Below the pieces are notes generated by a model. It saw only the letters and a list, made by a program, of their open reading frames with translations, was not told the origin of the DNA and did no database searches. A stretch of DNA of 64,000 nucleotides from Triatoma infestans (Eukaryota; Arthropoda; Insecta; Hemiptera; Reduviidae): positions 22,897 to 86,896 of the forward strand of contig JAAEAF010014918.1 of assembly GCA_011037195.1 (NCBI GenBank), read 5' to 3'. Below are positions 8,665 through 54,757 of the stretch, in pieces (position 1 is the first letter of the stretch; every line of letters begins with the position of its first letter). Made by a program: the position numbers and the translations under genes.

Positions 8665-8960
8665 CATTATACTGCAGTTTTACTGGTATAAGAACAGTAT
8701 AGTTTTCAATTAGCTCATTATGTAATTTCCACATCAATAAGTTAATTGAGAAATTACTATAAATACAATTTCTTTTTTTTCTACGACAATTAAAATATCG
8801 AAAGCTTGATCAAATAAATTCCCACCAATGATGACCATCAATTTTACGGTTCAATTATGATAACTTCCGTCCAATCTGTAGCGAAACAAATAGAAAACAA
8901 GAATTGTTCCTTTTATACACTAGAATGTAACAGAAGATTTTAGGGCAAGGGTCTGACCTT

Positions 8961-9914
8961 TTTCTTTCTCTTCTCTTAGTAAGAGGAAGTATTGTAAAGG
9001 TACCAAATTTTCGATATTGAGTGTTCACCCGGAAATATTCGTTTTGAGGTCCCCTGAGTCCAAAAAAGTGGTTTTTAGCAAATGGTCTGTGAGTGTGAGT
9101 ATGTGAAAAATGCTGTGCATAGCTCAAAAAACGAAAAATCGCAGAAAGTCCAACCTTGATATTCTGTTTAGGTATCACCATGGGATCCGACATTAGGTCA
9201 TCTGTCAAAGTTCCTCCACCGAAACTACCACTTTACTGAGTGGTTTTTCAATTCTTGCCATTTTCTCAAAAATAACTCTGACGATTTTCTTTAAACTTGG
9301 TATATAACTACACATACAAACATCTACAACTTTTATTTAAAACATTTCAGAGGGATGAGGTTAGGTTTTCCTCTAAAGTGCTATTTCAATTAAATATACA
9401 ATTCTGGCATCTAAATAATGTTAATTAGAATTAAATGTATTGTTGAAATTCCGAGTTTGAAAAAATCGGATGACCGGAAGTACGTTTTTCTTGTAATGTA
9501 TTTTTCAGTTTTCTCGTATTTTCTCGAAAACGGCTTCAATGATTTTCTCTAAACTAAGAATGTGAACTACACATATAAAGAGCTACAACTTTTATTTGAA
9601 ACATTTCTCCTGATAAAGTCATGTAAGGGGCTTTTGGGGTTGGGATGGGGTTATGTTTTCTCTAAAGTGCTATCATATTTAATTATACAATTCTATCATC
9701 CAAACAAAATTAATTACAAATAAATAGATGGCCAAAATTCGAAGTTTCCAGAAAATTACTAACCGGAAGTGCGCTTGCACTGAACAGTTTTTTCGGTGTT
9801 CGAGGAATTTCATTAAATTTGGTAAACTAACTACAAAATTTGTCAATTACAATTTTGAAAGCTAGAGTAAGAAAAAATTGTGTGAGTGTTTCATACTAAA
9901 TTTTTTTTTTTTTT
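8961..9914 (+). repeat. RepA copy 1 (modular dispersed repeat)
   Basis: Head: a palindrome-like 'ctcttagtaagagg', then 'ccaaattttcgatattgag', 'ttgaggtcccctgagtcc', 'aagtggtttttagcaaatgg', a GT-rich patch, 'cgaaaaatcgcagaaagt' and 'aggtatcaccatgggatccg'. The body has two modules, each running from a CCGGAAGT site (9473 and 9762) through 'ctacaacttttatttgaaac', a G-rich tract, 'ctctaaagtgctat' and 'caattctatcatc'. The tail is 'gagtaagaaaaaattgtgtgagtg' in phrase, ending in a T tract. No coding capacity is seen. The transposon class is unknown, and the terminal palindromes and fixed ends argue for a mobile element. Confidence 0.7.
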
Positions 9915-10264
9915 GTGAAATGGTTTTATTTGACAATAAGGTGAAGGCCATGGATCCCTTTTCCATTCAAGATGATTGAATCATTCTCACTTAAAATAAT
10001 CGTGTTTTATCAGTGAGTAAAGTTATGCTTTTTTTTATACTCGTATAAATCACGCTATCCGAGCGAGTGTGGCAACTGAACGATAGTGTAAACATAATTT
10101 ACTCACGTGTTGAAATAATAAATTTTTGTCTGCAACCGCATTAAATTCTTTCTCAACTTACATGAATAAACAATAAAAAGTATGAAAAAGTGCAAATACC
10201 GAGAATATACTTTAATTAATGTTAAATACTATCTCTCAATCTTTCTCTTAGTACAACCCCAAAT

Positions 10265-21827: not shown

Positions 21828-22191
21828 TTAGGCTCGTTTCACCCTATACGGTTTTCACCGTACAGCCGGACTTTTTTAGTGGAGTGAAGAAAAGCTTGGA
21901 ACCTTTCACATTATACGGTGACGGCAAAACGCCGGTGCCATGCCGTATAGCAGCCGTTCGGTGCCACTGAAATAGACGGCGCCGTTGACTCACTGGCCTA
22001 CATGATTAAATAAATGTACGCTTTCATATTGTGCGGTTTTGTGACGTACGGCAGCTACATTCTTTTTGACGCCTTTTGAAATAACTTTTTCTACTGTTCA
22101 CCAAAATCTAATATAAGGGTTGTTGTGATGGTTGGTTCCGCAGAGCTGGAAAGCATCAGAGATATTTTCCATGGTAGCCTGCTTCTTGAGG

Positions 22192-22231
22192 CCATCGACC
22201 GGTTTCGGGCGTTCGCCCATCTTCAGAATGC
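22192..22231 (-). ncRNA. Hammerhead-like motif, minus arm of PLE-B copy 1
   Basis: The reverse complement reads 'cattctgaagatgggcgaac' then 'gcccgaaaccggtcgatgg'. The box is CUGAAGA and GAAA is intact. It mirrors the motif at 22337-22374, so a transcript through both could fold as one long duplex. Confidence 0.5.
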
Positions 22232-22336
22232 GTTTTCAGACATGTGACAACACAGACTTGCACAGAGCAAACTTACACTCGAGTGTGAAACTAGTTTGAC
22301 TGTGCAAGTCTGTGTTGCCCACACTGTCTGAAAAAC

Positions 22337-22374
22337 GCATCCTGATGATGGGCGAACGCCTGAAACCGGTCGAT
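22337..22374 (+). ncRNA. Hammerhead-like motif, plus arm of PLE-B copy 1
   Basis: CUGAUGA, stem II GGGC-GAAC-GCCU, GAAA, then the palindromic ACCGGU and GUC, flanked by CAUC/GAUG for stem I. Only two bases could close stem III within one molecule, so a double hammerhead using the self-complementary ACCGGU between two copies is more plausible. Activity is inferred, not shown. Confidence 0.5.
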
Positions 22375-23079
22375 GGCCACAAAATGAAGCAGGCTACCAC
22401 GAAAAGTGTCTCTAATATAAGCGGTTGAAACAGCATGCCTTCCCTATATAGAGTAAGACATATATCAGTATTATTAAAATGGATGAAATTGATGCTCAAG
22501 TTTTGATAACCTGTGTGCAATGTAGACCTGTGCTATGTGACAAAACTCTTGATGTTTCGTCAAAGTATATAATAGATATCCGGAAATAGTTGAAAAATTT
22601 ATTTTCGTCATTCCTCAGGTCTTCCAGCAATCCAGCTTCTTCTCTCCGCTGATTGATGGGATGCTCCCAAAAAAGACAATTTCGTTTTACTCTCCTTCAG
22701 CGACGATGTACCAACTACAAAGCAATAATTTGTTCACGTTTCATCGAAACACTTATCTCATTGACAAACGAAATGAAAATGTATAGTTTACAATGGGAAA
22801 AAACCGTGCAATGTGAAAACAACATTGTCAGGGCAAACAGCCGAACGGTTTTTGCCGTACGATGAAAACCGTATAGTGTGAAACGAGCCTTAGGGTAGGA
22901 GAGGAGTAAACGTAGAGAACGTTGAGACTGAAATGAAGAGAGAGTATTTTTTCAAAAATTTAAAAAAAAAACTGTTAAAAGGTAGGAGGGATAAGAAAAA
23001 TGTTTATAGTGGGGCGCGGCAATTTCAAATTTTGGAAGAACAAATTACTGGCGAGTAAAGATTTTTTTTAGGGATTAGA

Positions 23080-25082: not shown

Positions 25083-25310
25083 TTTTACTTTCTCTTACTC
25101 CTAGTAAGAGGAAGTATTGTTTTACTTTCTCGTTTACTCTAGTAAAGAGGACGTATGTTTTGACTTCTCTTACTCTTAGTAAGAGAAGTATTGTTTTACT
25201 TTCTCTTACTCCTAGTAAGAGGAAGTAGGTTTTACTTCCTATTACTCCTACTAAGAGGGAAGTTATGTTTACTTTCTCTTACTCCTAGTAAGATGAAGTA
25301 TTGGTAATCG
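25083..25310 (+). repeat. Tandem array of RepA terminal palindromes
   Basis: Six units of 35-40 bp start near 25087, 25123, 25163, 25197, 25233 and 25270. Each is a variant of ACTTTCTCTTACTCC followed by TAGTAAGAGGAAGTA, so each unit is itself an imperfect hairpin. The last unit runs directly into the rest of RepA copy 2. Confidence 0.85.
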
Positions 25311-26275
25311 TATCAAATTTTCGATGTTGAGTTTCACGGCAATATCCGTTTTGAGGTCCCTGAGTCAAAAAGTGGTTTTTAGCAAATGGTCTGTTTGTGT
25401 GTGTGTGTATGTATGTTTGTTGTGAACAGCATAGTTCAAAAACGAAAAATGGCAGAAAGTTCAAACTTGATATTCCGTTTGGGTATCAACATGGGATCCG
25501 GACAGGACGCCAGCGCGGTCAAAATTCTAGACTAGAAATACCTCTTTACTGAATGGTTGTTTTTCACTAATTTGCAATTTTCCCTAAAATGGCTCAACAA
25601 TTTTCATTAAACTTGGTATATCAATTACATTTACAAAGATTTACAATTTTTATTTGAAACATTTCTCCCGAAAAATGCACTTAAGGGCACTTTCAGGGGT
25701 GAGGGATGGTGGGTTGTCCTCTAAAGCGCTATTTCAGTTTACTATATAATACTCTCAGCTAAACAATATTAATTACAATTAAATGTGTTGTTGAAATTCC
25801 GAAATTTTGAAAAAATCGGATAACCGGAAGTGTGTTTTTACTAAAATGTATTTTTCAGTTTTCTGTTATTTTTTTTTACTTTCTTGCAATTTTTTCAAAA
25901 GTGGCTCTGACAATATTCTTCAAACTTGGTATATCAACTACACACACAATGTTCTACAACTTTTATTTATAACATTTCTCTAGAAAATATCATTTAAGGG
26001 CACTTTTGGCGGAGGGGTGGGTTAAGTTTCTTCTAAAGTGCTATCACCGTTGATTATACAATTCTACCATCCAAACAAAATTAATAAGAAATAAATAGAT
26101 GGCCGAAATTCCGAGTTTCAAAAAAATAAGTAAACCGGAAGTGCCCATATACTGAACTTTCTTTTAGACGAATTTTATCAAATTTGGTATACAAACTATA
26201 AAATTTATCAATTACAATTTTGAAAACTGGAGTAAGAGAAAGTTGTGTGTGTGTGTTTCACACCAGATTTTTTTG
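25270..26275 (+). repeat. RepA copy 2, near full length
   Basis: Full order: palindromic head, 'ttgaggtccctgag', GT microsatellite (25396), 'gaaaaatggcagaaagt', 'gggtatcaacatgggatccg', then two modules with ACCGGAAGTG (25823 and 26134) and G-rich tracts (25700, 26010). The tail is 'ggagtaagagaaagtt', then 'gtgtttcacaccaga' plus a T tract. The tail carries the inverted copy of the head ACTTTCTCTTACTCC. Confidence 0.8.
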
Positions 26276-26388
26276 TTTTGTTTTTAATTTATTGCGCGTC
26301 AACATCTACGATTATTGGCGCCCAGAGGCTTCTCAGTGCACTGCCGGCCTCCGGACAGTGTTCTCTCATTTCAGACAACATTGTCCAA
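26276..26388 (-). repeat. SINE-B 3' fragment
   Basis: The phrases 'cactgccggcctccggacag' and 'gttctctcatttcagac' match the fragment at 58968-59110 and the body of the SINE at 45072-45308. It directly follows the T tract of RepA copy 2. Confidence 0.5.
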
Positions 26389-28629: not shown

Positions 28630-28990
28630 AAGAGAAATTATTGTAATCATGTCATATTTTCAAAATTAAATATTCCCCGAATACGTATAGTATGTTTTGA
28701 GATCCTCTAAATAAAATAATATGTTTGTAGGTGAGTGTGTTGTAAACAAAATTTAAAAAAAAAACAAACAAACAAAAATTGCAGGAAGCTTAAACTATGT
28801 TATTCCGGTACACTGTTGCATTCAGCAGAAAATGACTTTTTTCGGTCATACGTCGATAACCAATAGTAGTACGATTTCACTATATAGTTTTTCTCGATCT
28901 TCTGGAAAAATGGAACCAACGATTTTCTTTGTACTAGGGTACTATATACCCTTTCAGCTTTATATGAAATATTATGTTTTGATGTTCGTT
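28630..28990 (+). repeat. RepA-related fragment
   Basis: Diverged head text ('tgtcatattttcaaaattaa', 'ttttgagatcctctaaat', 'aattgcaggaagcttaaac') joined to PLE-type sequence at about 29000. Confidence 0.4.
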
Positions 28991-29062
28991 ATGGCCATTG
29001 TATTTGATGTTGTGAAAACGATTTTGAGGTTTGATCAAAGAAAACACTTTTTTCAAATTTTC

Positions 29063-29100
29063 ACCAACGTTTCGGCAAATTTATCGCCTTCTTCAGGGTC
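29063..29100 (-). ncRNA. PLE hammerhead-like motif
   Basis: The reverse complement reads CCCTGAAGAAGGCGATAAAT, then TTGCCGAAACGTTGGTG. It has a CUGAAGA box, a GGC/GCC stem II with AT-rich loop, GAAA, and the self-complementary AACGTT. This is the standard PLE pseudo-LTR signature; neighbouring coding sequence is not visible. Confidence 0.6.
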
Positions 29101-29548
29101 TGTACAAAGGTTTTAATATAAATCAGGAAAAAAGAAAAAAAAAACAACGTAAAATATAAACTTAAAATAAAAATTTAAAAAAAAAACTATATAAATAAAC
29201 TAAATAAAGAGTATTATATATAATAAAGTAAATTGAAATTTATTTTAAACTATTGCTATTATTGCAGAACAAATTAGAAATAAACTACATCTCAACTATT
29301 AGTATTTAAACAATATGTGGCATATATAAGTGTAAAATATAGAAATCTAGCATAAGAATTGTATTCATAAAAAATTTTCCTGTTTGAATTTCTTAAAAAC
29401 GTACGATTTAACTTGTGACATACCATCACCAAGTGTTATGGAAATAGGGTGTGTCAAGGTTTATAAAGGGCAAGGAGAGCGGATGGGAACACCATATCTT
29501 ATTGTTATGTTGTTTAAGAAATTCCAGGAGACTGTTATAACTGAGCGA

Positions 29549-31420: not shown

Positions 31421-32183
31421 TGATATCCTAAAAACTAAACCCGAACAATATATTCAGACAGTTCTATTCCTAGTAGTTCTAATTTCAGGTAGATCATCTA
31501 AAACTTATATGGATCATAAAGAAATATGATAAGATAAATATGATAAGATCAGAAAGAATATTTATCTATATGTTTAGTAAAAATTGCAAGTTCGAAGAGC
31601 CCAGTTACATTTGAATCAGTTCCTCTGTGAGGAAGTCTTGCAAATATTTCATCCAGATTTAATTTTTCCAAAAAGCTCGAATAATTATTAATTCTAAACG
31701 AGTTATATCCGGAACCGGCGGCATTAAAAACTGAGAATGAATTTATTGAATGTTATGTTATTAATCTCTTTTGAATAATTCTTGTTGTATAATACATAAA
31801 ATGTGTGTAATCCATGTATTATTAATATTTTGTAGTGAGTTATAATATTCTATATTAATTTCTAATAATTATTAACAGCGTCTTATAAAATAACAAAACA
31901 TTCGCAACATATATATATAATATATTTGTTTCACTTTAAATGAACTTCATTATATGTTAATGTTATTACAAACAGTATAACAGCCAGATTATAACAACCA
32001 TGTGGGTAATTCAATTTAACACCTACGGAAATTACATTTCCTACATAAATGCTTTTCTATAGAATCACTCACACACACACAAAATCATATTACAAGTGTG
32101 GGTTGGAATACTGTTTTAAATGTTTTACTTTTTTTTATTTGTTTGTCATGAATCCTAAATTTAATAAAAAAAACAAAAAACAA

Positions 32184-33030
32184 TTAAATCTGGTATGAAA
32201 CACTCACACTTCTTTTACTCCAGTTTATAAAATTGTGATTCACCAATTTTATAATTGGTACCTGCACCAAATTTAATGAAATTCGTTGTTCAGTAAAACC
32301 GCACTTTCGATTTACTAATCTTCTTGAAATTCGGAATTCTAGCCACCTATTTATTTATAATTAATTTTGTTTATATGGTAGCATTTTATAATCAACTATG
32401 ATGCACTTTAGAGAAAACATAACCCCACCCCTTCGCCAAAAGCTTTATATGTGTAGTTTACATTCCTAGTTTAGAGAAAATCGTGGGGACCGTTTTAGAG
32501 AAAAATAGCAGAAAACTGAAACGTACTTTTCACTAAAAACGCATTTCTAGACATCCGTTGAATATTATTCAAACTTGGAATTTCAACAATATATTTAATT
32601 CTAATTAATTTTATTGAGATGATACAATTGTATAGAAAAAACTGAAATAGCACTTTAGAGGAAAACCAAACCCCACCACTCCCCCATAAGTGCCCTTAAA
32701 TAAATTTTTCCAGAGAAATGTTTTAAGTAAAGGTTGTACATCTTAGTATTTGTAATTGATATACCAAGTTTGAAGAAAATCGTTTAAGCCATTTTTGAGA
32801 AAATCCCCAAAAAAGTGAAAAAAGAATCCAATAAAGTGGTATATCCGGTTGAGGAATTTCGATGGATAACCTACTTGTCAGATCCCATGGTGATACCTAA
32901 ACGGAATAACAAGATTGGACTTTCTGCGATTTCCAGGTTTTGAGCTATGCTGTTTACATACATACATACATACATATACACACCGTTTTCTAAAAACCAC
33001 TTTTTTGGACTTAGTGGACCTCAAAAGAAT
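32184..33030 (-). repeat. RepA copy 3 (minus strand, head truncated)
   Basis: The reverse complement gives the usual order: 'aaaaaccacttttttggac' (33010-32990) is head text, a TATG microsatellite replaces GT (32950-32975), 'ccatgggatctgacaag' follows, then two modules, then a tail mirrored as 'tctggtatgaaacactcac' and 'cttttactcc' at 32188-32221. The terminal head palindrome is missing. Confidence 0.75.
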
Positions 33031-33089
33031 ACAAGCTTAGAGAACATTCATAGAAATGATTGATATTAAAGAGGGAAATAATTATTCAG

Positions 33090-33470
33090 AAAATTCCACT
33101 TCTGATCAACTGAATTCTTTAAACTCCGAATTTTTCGACAAATTTAATTCCCATAAACATTTTATTCGTGGGGAAAACAGTACATTTTATTGAAATGGTA
33201 CTATAGCGGGAAGTCCAAGGTCTTCTTCTCCAGAGCTTCTTTCTCTAAAATGAAATATTTTCCTAAAAGAATGTTTCACTAAAGTGATAGATCAACACGA
33301 GTGTGATAGGGATGCGAAGTTTAAAGAGAATATTACTCTGACCATAGATGAAATTCCGAAACCGGTCAGATACATCAAAAATATGCACGCTATGACGGAT
33401 AAAATCCCAAATCTTTATTTCAACTTAACTCTGATTTTATTGTAGGGAATGGTTTTCAAGAAAAACATAA
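33090..33470 (-). repeat. RepA-related fragment
   Basis: Reads in minus orientation directly beyond RepA copy 3. Diverged module text includes 'ttttattcgtggggaaaac' and 'tagaaattccgaaaccgg'-like phrases. Confidence 0.3.
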
Positions 33471-34961: not shown

Positions 34962-35537
34962 TATGATGGATGCCAGAAATATAGATATATATTTTATTTC
35001 AAATATATAAAAATTATGAAGAACTAGACACTCGCTGGCAAAAAGGGTACACACAGGTAGAAGATTACCGTTACAGAAGAGTTCAAAGGACCTGACTAGC
35101 TTTGTCTTTAAGAGTTCACAAAACTTTGGTAGCTTTGTCTTTTGACCCCTTTTCTCAGGGGAAGATTTGTACTTAACAAGAGAAGGCATTCTTTCAGGGC
35201 AGTCTGCATTCTGCTTTCAAACAAGAACAGTGTGAAACAGACATTCAATCAGAACACTTGTCTTTCGCTCCCTTAGCATCAGTGCCAGTCATAAGTTAAA
35301 ACATACGAGTTCTGCACTTAATTTAGATAAATAATTGATTTATAAACATAATTAGTTGTGATATTCTAAAGTATTTAAATATCTTTAAAGATAATATATT
35401 TAATTTGATCTACCAGTGTTTTCTTGATTATTTCTTAATACTTCTATCTCTCTCTTAAAATTTACATACACAAGCCCTTTACCACTCGTGCCATACAAAC
35501 TACCACTACTACAACACATCACATCAATCACATTTCA
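34962..35537 (+). mobile_element. LTR-like repeat, copy 3
   Basis: Starts TATGATGGATGCCAGAAAT and ends ACATTTCA. It shares 'gcaaaaagggtacac' and 'caggtagaag' with 39942-40403, and the distal 'ccagtgttttcttgattatt' block with 3935-4449. It ends one base before RepA copy 4 begins, so one element inserted at or next to the boundary of the other. Confidence 0.55.
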
Positions 35538-36134
35538 CTTTCCCCTAACTTCTAGGAAGAGGAAGTATTGTAATCGTGCCAAATTTTCAATATCATGTTT
35601 TCACCGGAAATAATCGGTTTTGAGGTTCCCTGAGTTCAAAAAAGTGGTTTTTAGAAAGTGGTGTGTGTATGAGTGTGTGTATATATGTGAACAGTATAGT
35701 TCTAAAACGAAAAAAAAAACCGTCCTAGAAAGTTGAAACTTGATATTCCGTTTAGATATCACCATGGGATCTGACAATACGTTATCTGTCAAAATTATTC
35801 AACCGGGAGTACCACTTTACTAGTTGGTTTTATTTGAAACATTTCTCCGGGAAAATTCATTTAAGGGCACATTTGGGGGGAGGGATGGGGTAATGTTTTA
35901 CACAAAAGTGCTATCGTAGTTGATTATACAATTCTATCATCCAAACAGAATTAATTATTAACAAATAGATGGTCAAAATTCCGAATTTCAAAAAAAAAAA
36001 AAATAGCAAACCGGAAGTGCGCTTTTACTAAACACTTTTTCAGTTTTCGACGAATTTCATTAAATTTGGTACACTAACTATAAAATTTGTCAATTATAAT
36101 TTTAAGATCTGCTTTCACACCAGATTTTTTTTCT
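35538..36134 (+). repeat. RepA copy 4 (internally deleted)
   Basis: The head ('cttctaggaagaggaagtat', 'ttttgaggttccctgag') and the final module (ACCGGAAGTG at 36010) are present, but the first module is reduced to its end. About 600 bp against ~950-1000 for copies 1, 2 and 5. Confidence 0.75.
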
Positions 36135-38060: not shown

Positions 38061-38118
38061 ATGCTGAAGGAAAAGGATTGTGAGATTCGGTCTTTTTTTA
38101 AAAAATAAGAAAATTTAA

Positions 38119-39083
38119 CTAGAATACTGGTTTATGTGTATTGAACCATTTACAACAGCCATCAAATATTTTATTCACTTATTGTCCAACGTTTCGTGCA
38201 CTGTACGTGCCATTTTCAAGGACTAACATTCTATTAGTATACATTTCTGAAAATCATATATAACATTTTACATTTATCTTAATTAATTACAATATTATAC
38301 AACACAAAATATTTAATAGTCCACCAAAATGATTACCTTATTAGTAATTTTTGTAAGTATTATCTGTATCCTGGTAGGGAGGCTTCGTTCATTCAGACTA
38401 ATTTTAAATTGTTTTTAGTTTTTTTGTGTTTACAATGCGGGACACATAACCATCTGATAAATAGGACACTTTTCACCTCCCCAGCTCAGTCCACCACGTG
38501 AAGAGCTACGAGCAGGGTGTCACGACTACACACAGTAAGTTTTCTCAAATTCTCCCTTCCTATACACGGAAAGTTATTCTTTTATACTATAAAGATATAA
38601 AATATTGTTAATAGGCCATGAAAAACTACAGTTAAACTACAACCTACAAAAATTTAAAAAATATCCATAACAGAGACCACGTGGGCTCACCAATGCAATG
38701 AGGCGAATCTTATCATATAATACTAATTGCACAGAAAATAAGCTTATGACTACAACTTATGGGTTTGTAAAAACACAAAAAAACTAAAAACAATTTAAAA
38801 TTAGTCTGAATGAACGAAGCCTCCCTACCAGGATACAGATAATACTTACAAAAATTACTAATAAGGTAATCATTTTGGTGGACTATTAAATATTTTGTGT
38901 TGTATAATATTGTAATTAATTAAGATAAATGTAAAATGTTATATATGATTTTCAGAAATGTATACTAATAGAATGTTAGTCCTTGAAAATGGCACGTACA
39001 GTGCACGAAACGTTGGACAATAAGTGAATAAAATATTTGATGGCTGTTGTAAATGGTTCAATACACATAAACCAGTAATCTAG
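38119..39083. mobile_element. PLE-type inverted terminal pair, ~314-bp arms
   Basis: The left arm 38119-38432 and right arm 38769-39083 are near-perfect reverse complements around a 336-bp unique spacer (38433-38768). Each arm carries the PLE signature CTTGAAAATGGCACG ... GTGCACGAAACGTTGG (minus at 38183-38220, plus at 38981-39020). Inverted or partially inverted pseudo-LTRs are a known PLE arrangement. The spacer has no ORF, so this is a non-autonomous or collapsed copy. Confidence 0.7.
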
Positions 39084-39121
39084 ATAAATCGAAGTAACAG
39101 CATATTATTAAACATTTTAAC

Positions 39122-39691
39122 AAGAAAATTTAAATTCTTGCCAACGTTTCGACAAATATATTGTCTTGTTCAAGGCCTACTACATACAAATACAACAGGT
39201 TCTTTTTTGAAAGACAAAATCAAGAAACAAAATCAGAAAATAATAAAATTATTGATTAATTTGTACATTTTTTGGTTTACTTACATAAAAAAAAACTGTT
39301 ACATAATCTTCAAAACATACCAATTTCAAAAACTTTATGTATATATTTGGAAAATAAAAAGTAGAGAACAACACATCACAGAGAATAGTGAACAAATCGC
39401 TGTTCACTATGATTTATTTGTTCACTATTCTCCGTGATGTGTTGTTCTCAACTTTTTATTTTCCAAATTTATACATAAGTTTTTAAAATTGTTATGTTTT
39501 GAAGATTATTTAACAGTTTTTTTTTTATGTAAGTAAACCAAAAAATTTATAAATTAATCAATAATTTTACTATTTTCTGATTTTGTTTCTTGATTTTGTC
39601 TTTCAAAAAAGAACCTGTTGTATTTATATGTTGTAGGCCTTGAAAAAGACAATATATTTGTCGAAACGTTGGCAAAAATTTAAATTTTCTT
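39122..39691. mobile_element. 570-bp near-perfect palindrome of PLE-type sequence
   Basis: Arms 39122-39397 and 39416-39691 (276 bp each) are reverse complements with few mismatches and only an 18-bp loop. Both contain CTTGAA(C/A)AAGACAA ... TTTGTCGAAACGTTGGC (minus at 39141-39176, plus at 39637-39673), with GACA/TGTC as stem II and AACGTT palindromic. A transcript would form a long double-stranded hairpin. A 99-codon ORF (39138) lies inside the arm and is not a gene. Confidence 0.8.
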
Positions 39692-39941
39692 ATTTTTTAA
39701 AAAAAGACCGAATCTCACAATCCTTTTCCTTCATATAAGAACGCTCGAGAAGAATCTTCCATAGTAAAAATGGAACTCACTGTAACTCGCGAATAGCAGA
39801 TCACGAGGCCACTGGCGTTTGAGTCTTCTGGAACGATTGTCTAATATTGTACGGGAACTAAGAAGACGTACAAGAGGGGATTAGTATGAGAGAATAAGGA
39901 TTATGAAATTTCTACCGTGTACTTGCTACTTCTCTTGCATA

Positions 39942-40403: not shown

Positions 40404-41020
40404 TATGGTATTTCAAGATCTGTAGGAAAGGGTGAAGGGAGCGTGGGCTATAGTTCAGAGGACTTTGGACTGTAATTACTGGATGCGCTGGAGACTGGAA
40501 CACTGAGTTTGTGCTCCATAGTTCTACACCGTATTTCCAGAGTGATTTAATGAATGAAGGGTAAATAAGTCATTTCTTTTCCATTGAGAGTTCGGATCTG
40601 TGGTTCAGTAGTCTATACAATATTTTGTTTCGTAGGTAAAGTTCCTGTGTTTTAAGTCTGGTGTGAGGGTACCTCGTCAGCCTTTTCTCTATGTTGACAG
40701 AAGGAATTGGAATATTGTTATAATATATTGGTGCTGGAGTAATTGTATAATGGTATTTTCTCTTATTTAATGTTATCTTCCACAATTTGAACTCAAGGGA
40801 GCGAAGGTATCTGGTTGAGGTTACAGAATCTTGGTGAGTTGAGAGAATTGATGTATCATCAGGTAAGTGAATAGGAGAGTGTTTGAATGCGTAGGTATGT
40901 AATGCGTCTGCAGTGTAAATTGTGTATAGCAGGGGACCCAGGATATTTCTTTGTAGTACTCCAGCTCTTACAATTGGAAAGAAGAAAGTGAAGATCCAAC
41001 TAACATATAAAATTGAAGAC
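40385..41020 (-). mobile_element. Jockey-type LINE reverse transcriptase remnant
   Basis: The minus frame 41037-40570 gives AGVLQRNILGPLLYTIYTAD (RT domain 4 block), LPDDTSILSTHQDSVTSTR (the F/YADD catalytic block eroded to LPDD), YYNNIPIPSVNIEKRLTRY, and LRNKILYRLLNHRSELS (thumb). Downstream 40565-40440 continues FIKSLWKYGVELWST, then frame-shifted fragments LQSKVL and TDLEIPYV, the jockey C-terminal order. The copy is 5' truncated, and the lost catalytic aspartate context and frameshifts make it dead. Confidence 0.85.
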
Positions 41021-41039
41021 AAGTAAACATTTAGCAAAA

Positions 41040-44000
41040 ATAATAGAAAGCCGTGCCAGTGTTTCTCATCAGATATTTAATCATTATTTCTGAAATTTCT
41101 CGACCAGGCTCGTCGGAGTTACGCTTGTAACAATTTAAAGTATAATGTTACTTTAGTTTGAATTAAAAAACTAAAACCAAATTAGAAGATTAAGTAAAAT
41201 AAATAATAATTAAAAAAAAACTAATAATAAAAAAAAATTGAATTAATAGAAAAAAAGCAAAATAGTGAAAATATAGTTATTTTCCTTTCCCAAAGAGAGG
41301 AGATTGGAGAGGATGGTGGTCGCGGGCGGCGGCGGGAGGGGATGATACTACACAACACTTTGGAACTTGTTGCGTTTCATCCATTTTTGTTAAAAGTTTT
41401 TTCGATTGCCTTCTTGGTGGCCTGGCTTTAGGAGGGGACCAGTAGTGGGTTTCGGCTTTTGGCCTTAATAAGTGCTGGAGGGGGGTTTAGTCCAATGGTG
41501 TAAGAGGCGACCGACCGCCAGCTCGGTCTCCGGGGTTGGCAGGAAAGGGGGAAAGAGAGAGAAGCACTTTGCACAATAAATAACTGGAGGTAAACCCACT
41601 TAGAACTGTGCGCACCTGAGACATACCAGTATCCCATTACCTCTCTCTCTCTCTGTGCCGCGCCGTGCCCCCATGGCCACGAACGGCAATGCCCGCCGTT
41701 GCCGATCCTCATACCAAGCACTATTGCTATACTACTGCCTATCCAAGCTAGCTGGAGATTATCCACCTACTACTGCCTTCTTCTTGTTCCAAGTACCAAG
41801 GAACAAGAGAGAGTATTACTAAACAATATACACGCTGCTTGTTCCTGTGTAAAGCTAGTGTAGTACAACGCCTCCAGCTAGAACCACTTCCTCCACAATC
41901 TCCCTGTTCCCTGCCATACTACTCTCGACACATAACTTTATCCCACCACTGTACTACCACATCTCAGATCTTCCTTAAACACACCACTTTACTTTCATAA
42001 TGACACACAAAAAATTTACAAAGTATGAACTTAGAGCCATATTTATGCCCATCCTGTCTCATGATAATTATATCCTGGTAAAGTAACAACCTATATTATA
42101 AAGTGGTATACCTACTTAGAAAACCTTTTGGAAACTTTTTTTCTTTTTTTTTTATACATGAAGAATAAATTAAATTTATGTACTCAATTTAATGCATAAA
42201 AGTTACAATTAATTTTAAACGAGAAGAAAATATAAATTTTAAAATAAGTATCTTATTACATAGTTTAGCTTTTTTTTTAGGCTTAAAAATAAATTTCTTA
42301 TATTTGTAATTTTAAAAGGACATTGAGTAAAGGTATACTTGTGTTACGGGAAGGAATCAAAGTTTACTTATCAAATATTAGCTAGTTTTGTTAGATGGCT
42401 TTAGTCGTCTGTTATTATATTCCGCTTTAAAAACGTCCGAGTGTTTGCGTTTCTACTCACTACAAGAAGCACCATCAAAAAACGGCTGAAAAATATGATC
42501 ATGTATGAAATGTGCAATTTCAATTCTCTCATTAAGTTGTCACACAATATGTATTGGCATTTTTAATCGTTGTGGCTGCGTAAGAAACTTACCACTTATC
42601 TGATGATTTATAGCAAATTATTTACAACATAATTACATTTATCATAAAGATTTATAAATAATTATCCCTAGTTTGCCGTGCCAATATTTTAAAGTCTCTG
42701 CCCACAATTTATTCCAGAGATTAAACCAGAGATTGTTTTGGTGATAGCTGGCTTTATTTTGTGGTTTCATAAACAGGATTCACTATTCTTTATATAAATA
42801 GTGATTTTGCAATGGAGCTACTTGTATAATTACACTGTTCATTAAGCTGCCCAATAACAGTCAAAAAATTATGTTTTTTAACATTGCGGATATCTCAAAA
42901 ATCGAGTGGGTCCAACATTCATCTAGCGGAACAAAACGATCCTCATAAAATTAAGGTCTCAACTAGTAATTTTTAGAATCCATTTTTGGGAGCCACTAGT
43001 TCGTACTGAAACGTATCTCTATCTTCATTACATTTATCTCCAAAGGATTATAAAAATAGATGTCTGTCTATTTAACAAATAACTAATCTACCTTAAGTAT
43101 TTCCATGACACTACCCCGCTTGGAATTCCATTGCTTGGAATGGTCAATGGCCAGCCGGAACTTGCTATTATTACTCGTTTATCTCGCTTTACTGGTCTAA
43201 GGGAGCGCAGAAAATTTTCTTAACGCAAAACCTGTGAGATACGTTCTCAACTTTCCTACAACCAGATAGTAATAAGCAAATCTTTCATCTACAAGGAGAG
43301 AGCATAGTTACCCATACTTTTTCTCATCTATTAAGCCAGTAGATACAATTCTAGAATGCAATTGATAAGTCCCTAAAATTCAATTAAAAATATATATATA
43401 TTGTTTTCTCAGTGGTCTAAAACGCACCGGCCAACTGTCATTGAACAATTCCCAACTAATTTCAATAAATTCAGTGGGAATAACTAATTTAAACAATATC
43501 AAACTGAAACTAACAATAACTAAGCAAAATCCTGGTAAAATATTAGTTACAATTTATAAGTTATTGAAAGCAAAACACAACAAACATGTTACTACAATTT
43601 GCTAAATTAAATTCCTAAACATAAACTAAAGCAAATAAGATTGTCTAAAGCAAAGCGAAACAGAATAACAAGCAAACACTGAACTATGTTTATTATCGGC
43701 CAATTAATTAATTATTTATTATCACCACCTTCTTAGCTGCCAAACCTTTCCATATTACAAATAAGAGGTAACCATACTTTGTTTTATATATATATATATA
43801 ATAATTTAAGCCTTAAACTTTATTATACGTCATTAAGTTAGCTCTAAGGTAAGTTATATTACATACGAAGTCTAGTTTCTCTCGTTTAGCCTTATTATTT
43901 AATAAGCAATAATAAACAAAAGGACAACACAGTTACAATATAGAAAATTTAATTTTAACAGAAACAACCAGGTGTTCATTAATATTAGAAATCTGGTCTA

Positions 44001-45308: not shown

Positions 45309-45611
45309 TCATTGTAGACCTTATTGAAACTTGTGTGTTTGTTTATCTGCATTCAATTCCATTTTGTTCTATATACTTAAGAACCTTAATAAACCATTAA
45401 ATAGTAATAGTTACTTTTTTTAATTTGTATTTTTCTAATTGAGTTTAAAATTTTTGTTGAAGTTGACCAAGTTAGAATAGAAATTCCTCCAAAAACTTAT
45501 GTAAAATATATTTATCATGATGCCAATGTAATTATAGGCAAGAAAGAAAAAAACTAAAATTCTTATGTTACCACACACAGAAGCACTGTCTACCCTTTTG
45601 AGACATTTTTT

Positions 45612-46562
45612 CACTTTCTCTTACACCTAGTAAGAGGAAGTATAGTAATCGTGTCAAACTTTAGATATCGAGTTTTCACTGGAAATATCCGTTCTGAGAT
45701 CTGCTGAGTCCAAAAAAGTGTTTTTTAGAAAATGATGTGTGTGTGTGTGTGCTTGTTTGTGTGTATGTATGTGAACATCATAACTCAAAAACGAAAAACC
45801 GTAGAAAGTTGAAACTTTATATTCCGTTTAGGTATCACCATGGAATCTGACAGTACGTTATCTGTCAAAATTCTTCAACCGAAGTACCACTTTACTAGTT
45901 GCTTGAAACTTTATACATCAACTACAAATAGAAAGACCTACAACTTTTACTTGAAACTTCTCCGGAAAAATTCATTTAATGGTACTTTGGGGGAGGGTTT
46001 GGGGTTACTGTTTCCTCTAAAGTGCTATTTCCGTTTCTTAGACAATTTTGTCATCTAAATAATGTCAATTAGAATGATATATATATTATTGACATTCCGA
46101 GTTTGAAAAAAATCGGATGATCGGAAGTGAGTTTACTTTACCACTTTACTAAATGATTCTTTTACTTTTTCGCGATTTTTTCAAGAATGGTTTCTTTCTT
46201 GAAACTTCTTATACAAATTAAACATACAAAGGTCTACAACTCTTATTTAAAACATTTATCTGGGAAAATTCATTTAGGGCACTTTTAGGGGAGCGGTGGG
46301 GTTATGTTTTTCTTCTAAAGTGCTATCAGAGTTGATTATACAATTCTATCATCCAAACAAAATTAATTACAAAATAAATAGATGGCCGAAATTCCGAGTT
46401 TCAAGAAAATTAGTAAATCGGAAATGCGCTTTAACTGAACAGTTTTTTGTGTTCGATGAATTTCATTAAATTTGGTACACAAACTATAAAATTTGACAAT
46501 TATAATTTTGAGAATTGGAGTAAGAGAAAGTTGTGTGAGTATTTCACACCAGATTTTTTTTT
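45612..46562 (+). repeat. RepA copy 5, near full length
   Basis: Head 'actttctcttacacc' / 'tagtaagaggaagtatag', 'ctgctgagtccaaaaaagtg', (GT)n at 45737-45752, 'ggtatcaccatggaatctg', two modules with G-rich tracts (45990 and 46285), and the tail 'ggagtaagagaaagttg' / 'gtatttcacaccagattt'. The second-module ETS-like word has decayed to TCGGAAGTG. The 72-codon ORF at 45840 is incidental. Confidence 0.8.
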
Positions 46563-46569
46563 TTTTTCA

Positions 46570-47690
46570 TTAATTTCTTTGAATGAAAAACAAAGAATGA
46601 ATATAATCTAAAAAGAAAATCAAAATCAAAACAATTAAAAGAGAGAGAGAGATACCTAAACAATTTAATGAAGATTATAAAGGATAAATTGTTGTATTTG
46701 TAAAGTAATACGAAGTGTTGTAGAAAAGAAGGTAAATAGAGAGAGAGATTAGCTTGTAGTTTAATTTGATTTTGATGCGGAAGAGTTAATGAAATTAAAT
46801 ATATCACTTTCTAGTGTAGGGCAACTTCCTCCCCATCAGCTTAATTACAACAATTCTCTAAACTAGAAGAGAGTTCTCAATAAAATATATTTGTAGAAAT
46901 AGATACAAACAACTTTTTTTTTAATTATTTAAAACCAATTTTTACTTCTTTTGTTTTTTTTTAAAAAAATTGTTAAATATTCTAATTTTAAAAATATCCT
47001 TTTAAAAATTCCTGTATAAGTTACACATCATCACAATAAAGCAGTAACTACGTGTAAGTCTGAAATTGTTAGAAATATCAACTGAATGTTGGAACGCTAA
47101 CAAAGTTATGACAGTTACATTTTATGGGTGAATTTATCAAAGTTACAGACTGGTAGATCTCCGTTAGTTTGACAATACGGCGATAAAGACCATACCAGAC
47201 AGGTATGTATAGTTCTTGTAAAGTCTGCGTTATAAGTGAATAATATTGTCAGCAAATTTGTTATTAGCAAAACTATCTCAAAAGATGATTTATATAACTT
47301 TTTATCTAGTTTAATTTTCTTTTTATCAAACTTATAAAAGATCTATTAAATATTTATAACTGCTTGAAGAATAATGCATCAAAATTAATAGATAAAATTT
47401 ATTTAAATAGATAAATAGATAAAAATAGATAAATTTAATAGATAAAATAGTGACGTAAAAAGATTTTGGATATTTGAAAATTTTTTGGCCTAAATATTAT
47501 ATCTTTTAATATGGGATAAATATGTACCGGAAATGTATTGATATGCGTTAATCAATCTTATAAAGTTAAGTAAAGAGGTTATATAAAGTGAAGAGCCATA
47601 ATTAATACATCTATTTAGGCGAATTTTCTATTCTTCCGCATGGATTTTTTTGTTTATGTGGATGAAAATCGCGTAATTAAGTCTGCTTTA
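46570..47690. other. No recognised gene
   Basis: AT-rich with short GA runs. ORFs lack domains. Confidence 0.5.
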
Positions 47691-48775: not shown

Positions 48776-48905
48776 ATATTTTTTTTTTTCTCCAGGCGGC
48801 TAAGCACCTAGCTTCCAATGAACAGGCTGGGAGCACATACTACTTAATATTAATATTTTTCCAACAAATCGAAATTTAGCAATTATCCAAGGGCACGAAC
48901 TGGGG
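48776..48905 (-). repeat. SINE-like 3' fragment
   Basis: A T run followed by 'ccaggcggctaagcacctag' resembles the minus-strand SINE-B tail at 45094-45130. Confidence 0.35.
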
Positions 48906-49005
48906 ACCTCCTAGGTACAAATCAGTTAAGAATGGGAAATTCTGTTGGAAGTCAACAGAGAAATGGCAAAATCCATGAATCTGAAATATCAATTCCTGAA
49001 CATAT

Positions 49006-49180
49006 TTGTTGTGGTGGTTGGTTCCGCAGAGCTGGAAAGCTAAGAGTTAGTGTGAAACTAAGTCTCTGTACGAGTCTGTGTTGGCACACTGTCTGAAGAA
49101 CGCATCCTGAAGATGGGCGAACGCTCGAAACCGGTCGATGACCACAAAATGAAGCAGGCTACCACGGAAAATGTCTCTGA
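49006..49180 (+). mobile_element. PLE-B copy 2, 175 bp, 12-bp TSD
   Basis: Flanked by identical TCCTGAACATAT at 48994-49005 and 49181-49192. It begins with the 'ggttggttccgcagagctgg' start seen at 22129, then 'gtctctgtacgagtctgtg' and the hammerhead-like motif, and ends 'aggctaccacggaaaatg' + 'tctctga'. It is a single-unit copy without the inverted arm, far too small to encode protein. Confidence 0.8.
49103..49140 (+). ncRNA. Hammerhead-like motif of PLE-B copy 2
   Basis: CAUC (stem I), CUGAAGA, one extra U, stem II GGGC-GAAC-GCUC, GAAA, the palindromic ACCGGU with GUC, and GAUG (stem I partner). All core bases of the hammerhead consensus are present; the extra base after the CUGANGA box is atypical. 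Self-cleavage is inferred. Confidence 0.55.
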
Positions 49181-49329
49181 TCCTGAACATATACTTGATT
49201 TTCTTAAGTTATTCAGCGTTTTTCTCGAAAAAGGCTTCACAATCTTCAAATTATTATAGTATTTAATATTATAATGTACCTGTAATTATATAATGCATAC
49301 ATTGTATGTAAAGGTACTTTTAACGCTGC

Positions 49330-51155
49330 TTGGTGACCTAAAATAATGAAACAGCTCCGAAACTTTGACTGCCCAAGAAATCTGTTCAAACTGACAAGAT
49401 ACTATTTTAAAGATCGTAAAGCAACCATAATAACACATAATTACACCTGTGCAGTCAATGTACCAAAGGATGCTCCAAGGCTCATGCTGCTGACCAGGTT
49501 TGTGGAATATTTTGTATGATTCTCTTTTAAAACTGACACTTACATTTAACTGCTCTTCTATTGCTTTCGCCGTTGATTTTTTTATTGATGACAAGAGGAA
49601 AAAATACTTGGATGTACAGATGAGAGCTAATGAAACATTTCTATTGATAACAGACTGGGCAAGGGAGATAAAAATAAGTTTCAATAGAAAAAAATCCAAG
49701 GTGTTGCAAATTACTCGGAAGAGATCATTGAATGAGATATCAATTTATTTAAACGGAGAAAAATTGAAGTTGTTTCCGAACTGAAATATTTAGGAGTTAA
49801 AATAAATAAAAAATTTAACTGGGACAGTCATATTAAATATATCACGGATCGGGTAATGCAGATCATCAACAAACAGTCTATCAAGGACGGCGAAAGTGCA
49901 TTGGGGTTATTCTGTATAATATTCTGCATTAAAAATTATTTAGGACATGCATTTGGGCCTTTGCTCACTTATGCGATTCCTATTTGGATTAAAGATTTGA
50001 ATAAAAATAAAAACCTTATAAAGAATGAAAGGTGCTAATCTTATGGCTTTAGAATATTAAACGGTACAGAATAATACCGTATGAGGCTTCATATATAGCA
50101 GGCATAACCAATTTCAATTAAAGCAAGAGATTTATACGGTGCTAAAAGCGCATATCTCGAACATGAGTGATTTTCAAAACTTCGATTAGGATGTACCCCA
50201 TTCAGACTGGATGCACTTAACAATATAGGTAGGCACTTTGAAAATTATGAAGCTGTGCGATTAGGATGCGTCATAGTTTTTCAATTCAATTAAAAGTTTG
50301 GTGGAAACTAATGGCAATGCGAGTCTTGATATCTACACAGATGGTTCTAAAATAGATGGTAGCATAGGTTGCGCCTTCGTAGTCTACTTTGAGAACAATA
50401 AAATTCATGAACAAATATTCCGATTGGACAATAAGTGTTCCAATAATCAAGCCGAGACATTAGCAAGTGTTTGGAATGGATTCAAGACAACAGTTCAGGT
50501 TTCTCAAGGAATGACAGCCATATTACATTTGGCAGTTTAAGAAATTATAAAGTTCATTCCTCTCTAATTGAAAGTATCCGCAGAAAAATAGATGACCTCG
50601 AAGCAAAAGAAATAGGGATTGAATTTGAATGGATAAAAACACATGCTGGATTTTCATGAAATGAAGAAGCTGAAAGGTCTTGCTAAGGATATACAATTAA
50701 TACCGTCCAAACTTTCCAAAATCGTACATCAAAAGTGAACTAGAGAAAAGAAGCTTTGAAGAGAGGGAAATGAAGTGGCAAAATTCACAAAAAGGGATTT
50801 CACAAAGAAATTTATCGCGCACGTTCATATAAGACAGAAACTAAATCTAAAAATCAATTACCGGTTAACCCAAGTTATTAACAGGACATGGTCCAAGCAG
50901 ACACTGTCTTTATAGATTTCATATTATAGATTCACCTTATTGCCCGTGTGATCCCACAGGTACATCCATCCTATTCAGGATTTCACCCATCTAATATACA
51001 ACTGTACACTCTTAGAAAGCGCCAGAGCTAGGCTTATCAGCTGTATATTGAGAACTGGAAGGCGTTGGCCATTGCCAGGACACCAGTTGATCACAGAAGA
51101 ATTCATCGAGGAATTCATCAATTTTTTGAATAAATGGGACCTTGAAAAACTTTAA
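49330..51155 (+). mobile_element. I/R1-type LINE remnant: RT, RNase H and C-terminal end
   Basis: In shifting frames: LFKLTRYYFKDRKATI; KGCSKAHAADQVCG, a decayed QGS..GP..WN block continuing WNILYDSLLKL; CSSIAFAVDFF, where FADD has become FAVD; ISFNRKKSKVLQITRKRS; LKYLGVKINKKFNWDSHI; then RNase H from 50300 (DIYTDGSKIDGSIGCAFVVY, NNQAETLA, EWIKTHAGFS); and a C-terminal LLESARARLISCILRTGRRW near 51010-51065. The order RT, RNase H, knuckle region fits I/Outcast/R1-related LINEs. Stops, frameshifts, a lost RT aspartate and a 56-bp foreign insert (50227-50282) show it is dead. Confidence 0.8.
50227..50282 (+). repeat. Exact 56-bp copy of mariner sequence inside the LINE
   Basis: Identical in all 56 positions to 48272-48327, where it belongs to the mariner reading frame (RHFENYEAV). 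In the LINE it interrupts the segment between RT and RNase H. The word 'cgattaggatg' occurs both inside the copy and about 50 bp upstream in the LINE (near 50176), a possible microhomology. Confidence 0.9.
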
Positions 51156-53072: not shown

Positions 53073-53212
53073 TTAATTGGTTGTTTTGTAGCGCTACTGT
53101 GCAAGTTCAGATAAGAATGGAACGTAAACTCAGAATGGTGACTGGTTAGATTATTAACGTAAAGAATTATGTTGCAGCGAAGAAATCTCGATTTTGTTTT
53201 TAAATTAGATAT

Positions 53213-53290
53213 CGTAAACTCAAAACTTATACGAATTCCATTTATTCTCACAATTTCCATTTATTCTGCAAGTTTTCTTAAATGTTGGAA
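53213..53290 (+). repeat. 78-bp source of a local duplication
   Basis: 'cgtaaactcaaaactt' to 'cttaaatgttggaa' recurs at 53912-53989 with one visible mismatch, 699 bp away in the same orientation. The second copy lies inside the PLE-B insertion. Similarity extends weakly upstream to 53196. Confidence 0.9.
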
Positions 53291-53754
53291 TTTTCACTAA
53301 TCGACAGATCTCTTAACTCTACCTTATTGTGTGAATCCACACGTGAACTGATAGAGACAGGTAGAGTCTAAGATGGTCTCAGATCCAATAGTTTCAAATG
53401 TTAATAAATTAAATATTACAATAATTATATTAGCTTTCTTTTTTGGTGTGTAATTGCATTTATCCCATTTATGTTGGGTAGTCACTAATAATAGATAGCG
53501 CCTTAAAATAAATTCAATTTAATAAATTTAACCCAATTTTTTTTTTGTTTGGTCTATTTTTTTTTTTTCTTTATTGCAGTTATGTATTTATTTTTCTTTA
53601 ATATCAATTCGGCAGGCGGACAACTTTGACCATGCTTATGGATGTTATTACTTTTCTTTTTAGTTTTAATGATTAAAGATATAATTATGTAATTATTTAA
53701 ACAAAAATAAAGTTCATCTATGATCCCTAACATCTATCAAACTTATCTATAATT

Positions 53755-53990
53755 ATCAGAGACATTTTCCGTGGTAGCCTGCTTCGTTTTGTGGTCATCG
53801 ACCGGTTTCGGGCGTTCACCCATCTTCAGGATGCGTTTTTCAGACAGTGTGCCAACACAGACTCGTACAGAGACTTAGCTTCACACTAACTGAGGCGTGT
53901 TTTTAAATACTCGTAAACTCAAAACTTTTACGAATTCCATTTATTCTCACAATTTCCATTTATTCTGCAAGTTTTCTTAAATGTTGGAAG
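53755..53990 (-). mobile_element. PLE-B copy 3 with 5' extra sequence, 11-bp TSD
   Basis: Flanked by TATCTATAATT at 53744-53754 and 53991-54001. On the minus strand its 3' part is standard PLE-B ('gtctctgtacgagtctgtg', hammerhead-like motif, 'aggctaccacggaaaatgtc'). Its 5' part (53990-53897) is not PLE-B but a near-identical copy of 53213-53290. It lacks the 'ggttggttccgcag' start of copies 1 and 2. Confidence 0.8.
53796..53834 (-). ncRNA. Hammerhead-like motif of PLE-B copy 3
   Basis: The reverse complement has CATC, CTGAAGA, a stem II formed by GGGTGAACGCCC, GAAA, ACCGGTC and GATG. The U in stem II is compensated as a G-U pair, consistent with a conserved helix. Confidence 0.55.
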
Positions 53991-54757
53991 TATCTATAAT
54001 TCCCTAACAAAATACAATGGAATAAAAATTTCTATTTTTAGAAATGTAAACAATAGACAAAAAATAGAACAGAAAAAAAAAGAACAACAATATCGGACGG
54101 AGAAGAGTAAGAGTAGCCCATTGAATAAATGAGTGAGAGAGAATAGTATTATAGTCAGGGCGCGGTGTTGTGCAATGAATATTATTTCAAAATGACTAAA
54201 GGTTATGGCATATAATAAATAATAGAGCTAAAGGGGTACCTAATAATAATATATACTATCCCTCTTTAATAAATTAGTAAATGGGTTTGCCGGTAACGTT
54301 CTGAAACGTGGTGGGGGTGAGAGGGCTCGACCAGAAAGAGGAAGAGAGAAGCTGGTTGCATCCTCTCTTGGAAAGGAGGCAGTTTCAACTAACGTTCATA
54401 TAGCTGTTATCCCACAAGTTTATGTTAGTAATATCCCTACTGAATTTATTTACTTTTCATTTTATTTTGTATAGGTATACGTACTGTATTTTCTATTTAT
54501 TCATAGAAAATAAATATTAGTTTACCTTTTATATAATAAAATAGTTCTGGATACCTGAAAGAATCTCTAGCAAGTTTTTCATCTCATGCTACAGCGAAGA
54601 AAAAGTATCTTCTGAATAGTTAATTGGACATATCGATTCTATTAATTAAAAAAAAAAATCGGTTTAATTATCGTTGCTTCACTATTACAGAGTCATTTTT
54701 AGGGATATGTATTACAAGGAGACTATAAATAGAAAAAAAATTAAAAAACCTATGAAA

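Follow-up and report, generated by a model that had tools for sequence, protein, structure and literature searches.

A hammerhead-bearing 175-bp insert in Triatoma infestans read as a stub insertion of a Penelope-like element

Described systems and the present locus

In PAc, the Poseidon Penelope-like element (PLE) of Anolis carolinensis, a hammerhead lies at the start of the open reading frame (ORF) and cuts 26 nt into it, reverse transcription starts internally, mostly 111-118 nt into the ORF, and an optional tail of 30-40 bp lies between two reverse transcription starts; in vitro, both strands of AT-rich targets are cut and extended (PMC11167929). According to the available part of PMC3846280, Penelope of Adineta vaga has an inverted and a direct pLTR, the pLTR including the first ORF codons, is flanked by TSDs, and carries an optional 31-bp tail on one inverted pLTR. 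Minimal type I hammerheads of PLEs, treated by Cervera and de la Pena 2014 and Lunse, Weinberg and Breaker 2017, are described in the accessible parts of PMC6155905, PMC7761336, and PMC7229834 as located in pLTRs, lacking a proper stem III, and cleaving as dimers. Metazoan retrozymes are presented in the accessible text of PMC7229834 as small elements with type I hammerheads, direct tandem repeats, and circular RNA, for which a PLE is the suspected helper.

The window analyzed here is a 64,000-nucleotide stretch of Triatoma infestans DNA (contig JAAEAF010014918.1, positions 22,897 to 86,896), and the insert at 49006-49180 was compared with these systems. It shares with PAc the order of hammerhead, ORF, and tail, with a predicted cut 24 nt into the presumed ORF as against 26, together with internal reverse transcription starts, an optional tail between two such starts, presumed cutting and extension of both strands, and AT-rich targets (judged here by eye); it differs in that the starts lie at +69 and +104 instead of, most often, 111-118, and in that nearly every two-armed copy combines both kinds of start, whereas the strands did not differ in PAc in vitro. 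The pLTR layout, tail, and TSDs resemble those of Adineta vaga Penelope as far as the available text describes them, whereas copies there mostly hold ORF sequence between the pLTRs and those here mostly consist of arms alone, and the tail, optional there, is here nearly always on exactly one arm (PMC3846280). By the accessible descriptions, the minimal core, its location in a pLTR, its lack of a proper stem III, and its presumed cleavage as a dimer are like those of PLE-associated minimal type I hammerheads, an extra U and the sequence ACCGGU belonging to the present core. Unlike in the retrozymes of PMC7229834, as far as that text was available, the hammerheads here are single or inverted, with no sign of a circle; direct tandem repeats with a hammerhead in each were not found, the arms being inverted, head to head. 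Earlier publications cover PLE hammerheads, their action as dimers, tails, and inverted pLTRs, and the newer part is the arm-end footprint described below.

The insert and its hammerhead core

Positions are given relative to a reference in RNA sense of 172 nt, in which ref1-137 correspond to window 49045-49181 and ref138-172 to the tail; ref69 is the position of the ATG, and the cut is predicted between ref92 and ref93. The sequence-only reading of the insert as 175 bp long and flanked by a perfect 12-bp TSD was confirmed (identity 12/12, 48994-49005 vs 49181-49192). The parts of the insert and its flanks are as follows.

48994..49005, + strand: left TSD TCCTGAACATAT
49006..49040, - strand: short inverted arm, equal to the PLE tail, ref172 to ref138; cDNA start at ORF +104
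49041..49044, no strand: TAAG filler, the junction between both arms
49045..49181, + strand: full arm, ref1-137, from the presumed transcription start to the cDNA start at ORF +69; its last T is common to the right TSD
49103..49140, + strand: minimal type I hammerhead core, stem I CATC/GATG, stem II GGGC/GCTC
49113..49181, + strand: presumed PLE ORF, first 23 codons, with the ATG inside the hammerhead core, by analogy with PAc (PMC11167929)
49136..49137, + strand: predicted cleavage C49136/G49137 (ref92/93), from hammerhead anatomy and from arm ends at ref93 elsewhere
49181..49192, + strand: right TSD TCCTGAACATAT

The inverted 35-bp tail arm, which was absent from the sequence-only reading, is the reverse complement of the sequence 3' of ...TCTCTGAT in the inverted arm of a palindromic copy listed below and in fuller copies. 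The 137-bp arm spans the presumed transcription start, the hammerhead, and the presumed ORF start, ending 69 nt into the ORF. The insert is read here as a pair of cDNAs, each made on a different target strand, that were started at two internal sites separated by 35 nt.

The hammerhead-like core reported earlier was found again as CATC-CTGAAGA-T-GGGC-GAAC-GCTC-GAAA-CCGGTC-GATG, which contains CUGANGA, GAAA, and an NUH cut triplet, as in minimal type I hammerheads, with one extra U between the core and stem II. The palindrome ACCGGT is a candidate stem III between two RNAs; the suggestion that two copies are needed to form this stem holds up, dimer cleavage being published for PLE hammerheads according to the accessible parts of the sources cited above. 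A comparison with Rfam, which had been proposed as a check, did not support the core: no curated hammerhead model matched in the whole window at gathering scores, or in 48800-49400 and 49080-49160 at E up to 10. No significant fold was obtained for the RNA of three segments surrounding the core (z -0.08, 0.87, and 0.43).

Covariance support for stems I and II was found between two PLE families. Sites were anchored on GAAACCGGTC with one mismatch allowed, which yielded 24 sites in the window and a 200-kb genomic stretch; 17 were aligned (at least 5/7 core letters) and seven were left out, among them three decayed members of the family whose length had changed. Cells changed on both stem sides numbered 26 vs 11.6 +/- 2.7 in shuffled alignments (0/500), the covariation score was 0.541 vs 0.346 (0/500 shuffles), and the paired fraction was 83.1% vs at most 39.0% when slid. 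There was no excess over shuffles in pairs with double change (6 vs 5.6, 274/500) or in further pair types (11 vs 14.3, 500/500). The signal comes mainly from two families, one with CATC/GATG and GGGC/GCCC and the other with TGCT or TTCT/AGGA and GGAT/ATCC, and therefore reflects few independent events. Stem changes among the window copies are only C-to-T, leaving G-U pairs, and are uninformative, so that families were compared.

A decayed copy of the second PLE family, the one from which the covariation comes, lies in the window at 33334-33371 (+; CTGACCATAGATGAAATTCCGAAACCGGTC). Another PLE-like hammerhead motif, CTGAAGAAGGC...GCCGAAACGTTGG, lies at 28990-29250 (-), with its core near 29096; it has GAAACGTT, in which the palindrome ACGT is a would-be stem III.

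Related copies, Penelope-like proteins, and arm pairing

A 30-base core had four matches in the window at no more than three mismatches (22197-22226 -, 22342-22371 +, 49107-49136 +, and 53800-53829 -), against 0.00 expected from 100 shuffles. These include two more insertions of the same PLE family, one palindromic (22120-22416) and one with a single arm (53755-53891).

22107..22117, + strand: left TSD of the palindromic copy, TCTAATATAAG, 11 bp
22120..22267, - strand: inverted arm of the palindromic copy, ref172-20, including the tail and a hammerhead
22282..22416, + strand: direct arm of the palindromic copy, ref5-137, with hammerhead
22411..22421, + strand: right TSD of the palindromic copy
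53744..53754, - strand: TSD of the third copy, AATTATAGATA, 11 bp, found by string search; partner TSD at 53991-54001
53755..53891, - strand: single arm of the third copy, ref1-137; its 5' side adjoins about 99 bp of other sequence (53892-53990), inside the TSDs

The segment 53892-53990 resembles 53195-53301, 0.6 kb away, at 90%, and is perhaps captured or template-switched sequence. A weak remnant of the same PLE segment is present at 42726-42782 (-; nhmmer E 0.02).

The 941-Mb genome was searched with two queries. Sample 1 (L001-L040) was obtained with the whole insert and its TSDs and holds 40 loci including the window copy (L001), the 40 scored among 3353 first-look candidates. Sample 2 (L061-L097) was obtained with the core alone, 40 being scored among 1877 candidates; the window copy and two loci already collected were left out, giving 37 loci. 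Sample 1 is biased toward an insert-like layout because its query was the 199-bp insert itself; in sample 2 the plus arm was selected for identity to the query and the partner arm was free of selection. One contiguous 200-kb stretch, chosen regardless of the repeat, held about nine insertions according to a reading of the match list. Its matched pieces were 72-95% identical, save one 19-base piece, so most copies are old; by eye, five of its insertions (4764, 29750, 55073, 80590, and 149089) consist of one tailed and one tailless arm, and the remaining ones are single, decayed, or complex. TSDs of the sampled copies are mostly 11-13 bp. Further copies with TSDs are present in the genome, but the layouts are variable and no fixed 175-bp unit was found among the loci read. 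The earlier description of a 'minimal, mobile, non-autonomous element' finds no support in these copies, which have common arm ends but arm lengths and junctions that vary by insertion; they look like separate PLE reverse-transcription products rather than duplicates of a 175-bp unit.

The PLE origin proposed by the sequence-only reading was borne out by reverse transcriptase (RT) and GIY-YIG frames adjoining other copies of the repeat. By eye, five sample-2 loci (L071, L072, L074, L086, and L088) have a common long upstream sequence that resembles the end of a reading frame, and seven one-armed sample-2 loci (two with the same flanks) continue upstream into PLE sequence past the fetched stretch. 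In 3.3 kb fetched beyond three of the former five loci (L098-L100), an RT frame was found in one stretch (L098; PF00078, E 1.4e-8, 35.1 bits, cut-off 29.6) and GIY-YIG frames in two (L100, E 4.3e-5, 24.2 bits, cut-off 22.6; L098, 17.8 bits, below cut-off); the L099 stretch had neither frame. An inverted arm of L098 (ref136-1) lies 22 nt before its RT frame, which has 331 homologues, counted as support for PLE identity. Among the 120 of these that were listed, the top one belongs to the fly Rhagoletis pomonella (41%), the named ones are from insects and ticks, and seven carry GIY-YIG. In NCBIfam nothing reached the cut-off, the matches being low-scoring ones to other RTs and to a homing endonuclease; the N-terminal peptide (X-filled query) had two candidates in a protein search, neither of them scored; and a scan of viral contigs gave no matches. 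The copies examined show direct and inverted pLTRs with an optional tail and TSDs, as PLEs do. The repeat belongs to an endonuclease-bearing PLE.

Two opposed arms were found in 59 loci of both samples and the palindromic window copy taken together. In 53 of the 59 the arms are mixed, with an end at ref160-172 for one and at ref130-147 for its partner; two are short+short (L033 and L080), none is long+long, and four are unreadable, so that 53/55 readable loci have one long-start and one short-start arm. By sample, mixed arms account for 29/30 two-armed loci in sample 1 (short+short 1/30) and for 23/28 in the core-selected sample 2 (short+short 1, long+long 0, unreadable 4), for which a coin-flip model gives P = 1.5e-6 for at least 23 mixed of 24. 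Inner arm ends lie at ref5 or less in 45/60 cases in sample 1 and 41/56 in sample 2, and the 5' end of the template is therefore mostly fixed. The sequence flanking the inner ends, TATTTAAGAATACACCTC-AGTTAG, presumably resembles a promoter with an initiator. Many arms have an extra AG before ref1, and PLE upstream sequence is without it. The head-to-head junction of a full arm and a partner arm can be written as the pattern TTTCACACTAACTN{0,30}AAAATGAAGCAGGCTACC; at the arm centers (L012-L040 and L103) the filler consists of partly palindromic scraps of ref1-30 or of unrelated DNA, which in L103 amounts to 186 bp.

To compare the two arms of a locus, 41 arm pairs were used, of which L008 was dropped because the compared arm was a neighboring insertion. 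Substitutions present in at least three loci were called recurrent. Three of the 40 remaining pairs (L029, L066, and L078) have at least three recurrent substitutions in one arm only and are of mixed subfamily; L083 is intermediate, and L034, L069, and L082, with several one-sided non-recurrent changes, were not counted. Both arms have substitution(s) in common in seven cases (the 22-kb window copy, L024, L062, L068, L073, L083, and L089). Arm pairing in L077 and L091 is uncertain, which leaves the counts unaffected. Since arms can carry different subfamily variants, a single insertion seems to draw on two RNA molecules; a pair of RNAs, frequently though not invariably of the same source, would explain the arm differences, and later gene conversion could also have produced mixed arms. 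A model in which a single RNA is the template of both cDNAs, and the second halts at the start of the first, was prompted by short sample-1 tail arms ending near ref138. It was rejected because the query itself had that layout (inner ends beyond ref93 number 13 in sample 1 and 1 in sample 2) and because partner arms are in some cases of different origin.

Proposed mechanism and competing readings

The whole is best explained, with good probability, as a stub insertion of an endonuclease-bearing PLE. The PLE transcript would start near ref1 (window 49045), pass the minimal hammerhead, and enter the ORF. The PLE endonuclease would cut an AT-rich target on both strands, the cuts lying about 12 bp from each other, and each cut 3' end would prime reverse transcription within the beginning of the ORF on a PLE RNA of its own, at +69 in one case and at +104 in the other. 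Both cDNAs would extend to the RNA 5' ends and join head to head, giving inverted arms and a TSD of about 12 bp; in the window copy, one cDNA may have halted after 35 nt while the other reached ref1. Sometimes the hammerhead, with stem III formed through the ACCGGU palindrome of two RNAs, would have cut the RNA beforehand, so that the arm ends at the cut. Several observations count against the stub reading. The L098 reading frame is open only in pieces, and none of the three upstream stretches has the ORF start, the hammerhead, and the catalytic domains together. One-armed loci by BLAST make up 10/40 of sample 1 and 9/37 of sample 2, among which, by eye, L037/L038 (one event, because the flanks are the same) keep about 17 nt of tail and L090 about 11 nt, and complex loci exist (L061 and C12496:126270-126930). 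In PAc in vitro, start sites did not differ between the strands, and the hammerhead cut only with protein, its cutting being dispensable for insertion (PMC11167929).

Inner ends at the predicted cut are a minority, with 2/60 in sample 1 and 0/56 in sample 2; the latter has a further seven inner ends at ref23-67. The two cases are L020 and L028, in which the short-start arm begins exactly at ref93 and the partner reaches ref1. In the genome, the ref93-start pattern had 187 matches vs 114 for a ref96 control, and among the first 100 listed for each, 80 vs 42 were beyond explanation by a small indel as defined here; 14 of the 80 have the prefix AAA in common, perhaps as a single recurrent variant. 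Counting ref93 ends by a three-base mismatch prefix was rejected, since such a count is contaminated by small indels in intact arms and lends weak support only. Four head-to-head pairs within 500 bp were seen by eye among the first 100 ref93 matches (C107, C117, C2767, and C4151), and each of the three that were fetched (L101-L103) has one arm ref93-136/137 and one arm ref93-172, with TSDs, by eye, of AAGGACAAAAAT (L102), GAGAATTAAATGT (L103), and ATCTTAAG (L101, ends blurred by shared letters). The shared ref93 end of these three is a selection effect, because they were chosen for it, and their one-long-one-short layout and TSDs are independent of that selection. Arm ends at ref93 are what a hammerhead-cut template would leave, and on this sequence evidence they hint at a ribozyme working in living cells. 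That they mark instead a pause of the reverse transcriptase at the hammerhead or stem structure of an uncut RNA is rather unlikely: the rarity of these ends and the populated ref96 control agree with pausing, and against it stand the exact scissile position in L020, L028, and both arms of the three loci picked for this pattern, as well as the excess of ref93 over control matches. Most arms end elsewhere than at the cut, in line with the dispensability of cleavage for PAc insertion (PMC11167929). Arm ends of this type, or arms of mixed source, in PLE insertions were the subject of no report in the titles and abstract openings of a limited open-licence literature. More tentatively, and at somewhat less than even probability, two RNAs, sometimes of different sources, may come together in a single integration complex, pair via ACCGGU into a double hammerhead, maybe be cut at the same bond, and each be copied from one fixed start per strand, in which case the insertions would record ribozyme action in the germ line.

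Inverted arms could also arise by self-priming, in which a cDNA folds back to serve as its own template, an idea put forward for bdelloid PLEs and argued by Arkhipova 2013 in the available part of that paper (PMC3846280). The scrambled, partly palindromic filler at many centers agrees with this, as does C12496:126270-126930, where two long arms are accompanied by their own flank repeated inverted, as if by fold-back synthesis (by eye). Self-priming predicts the same outer end on both arms, but the outer ends differ in 53/55 readable loci, and L029, L066, and L078 have arms with different subfamily variants, which makes it improbable. Disfavored and less probable still is a self-propagating, retrozyme-like non-autonomous mini-element of about 175 bp copied as a unit, which would account for the 13 of 30 two-armed sample-1 loci, including the window copy, with one inner end beyond ref93, most of them near the tail boundary. 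The sample-1 search with the 199-bp insert favors that layout, however, and junctions and arm lengths vary among those 13 loci; short tail arms are rare in sample 2 (L095, ref156; L090, 11 nt, by eye), where full arms prevail, and the hammerheads are inverted, without direct tandem. Under the stub reading, about nine stub insertions per 200 kb, if typical, would correspond to tens of thousands genome-wide. Stubs would preserve cDNA ends as a record, so that sequence alone would allow template cutting, template number, and start-site choice to be counted.

Other repeats are present in the window. A 576-bp palindrome (92%) lies at 39119-39694, and a 319-bp inverted repeat (99.4%) is formed by 38113-38431 with 38771-39089. 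A dispersed repeat family, with members reaching about 1 kb and 70-84% identity between pairs, is located at 8955-9916, 25268-26293, 45602-46579, 32163-33031 (-), and 35533-36111. A frame at 40570-41076 (-) reads, by eye, like a fragment of a LINE reverse transcriptase.
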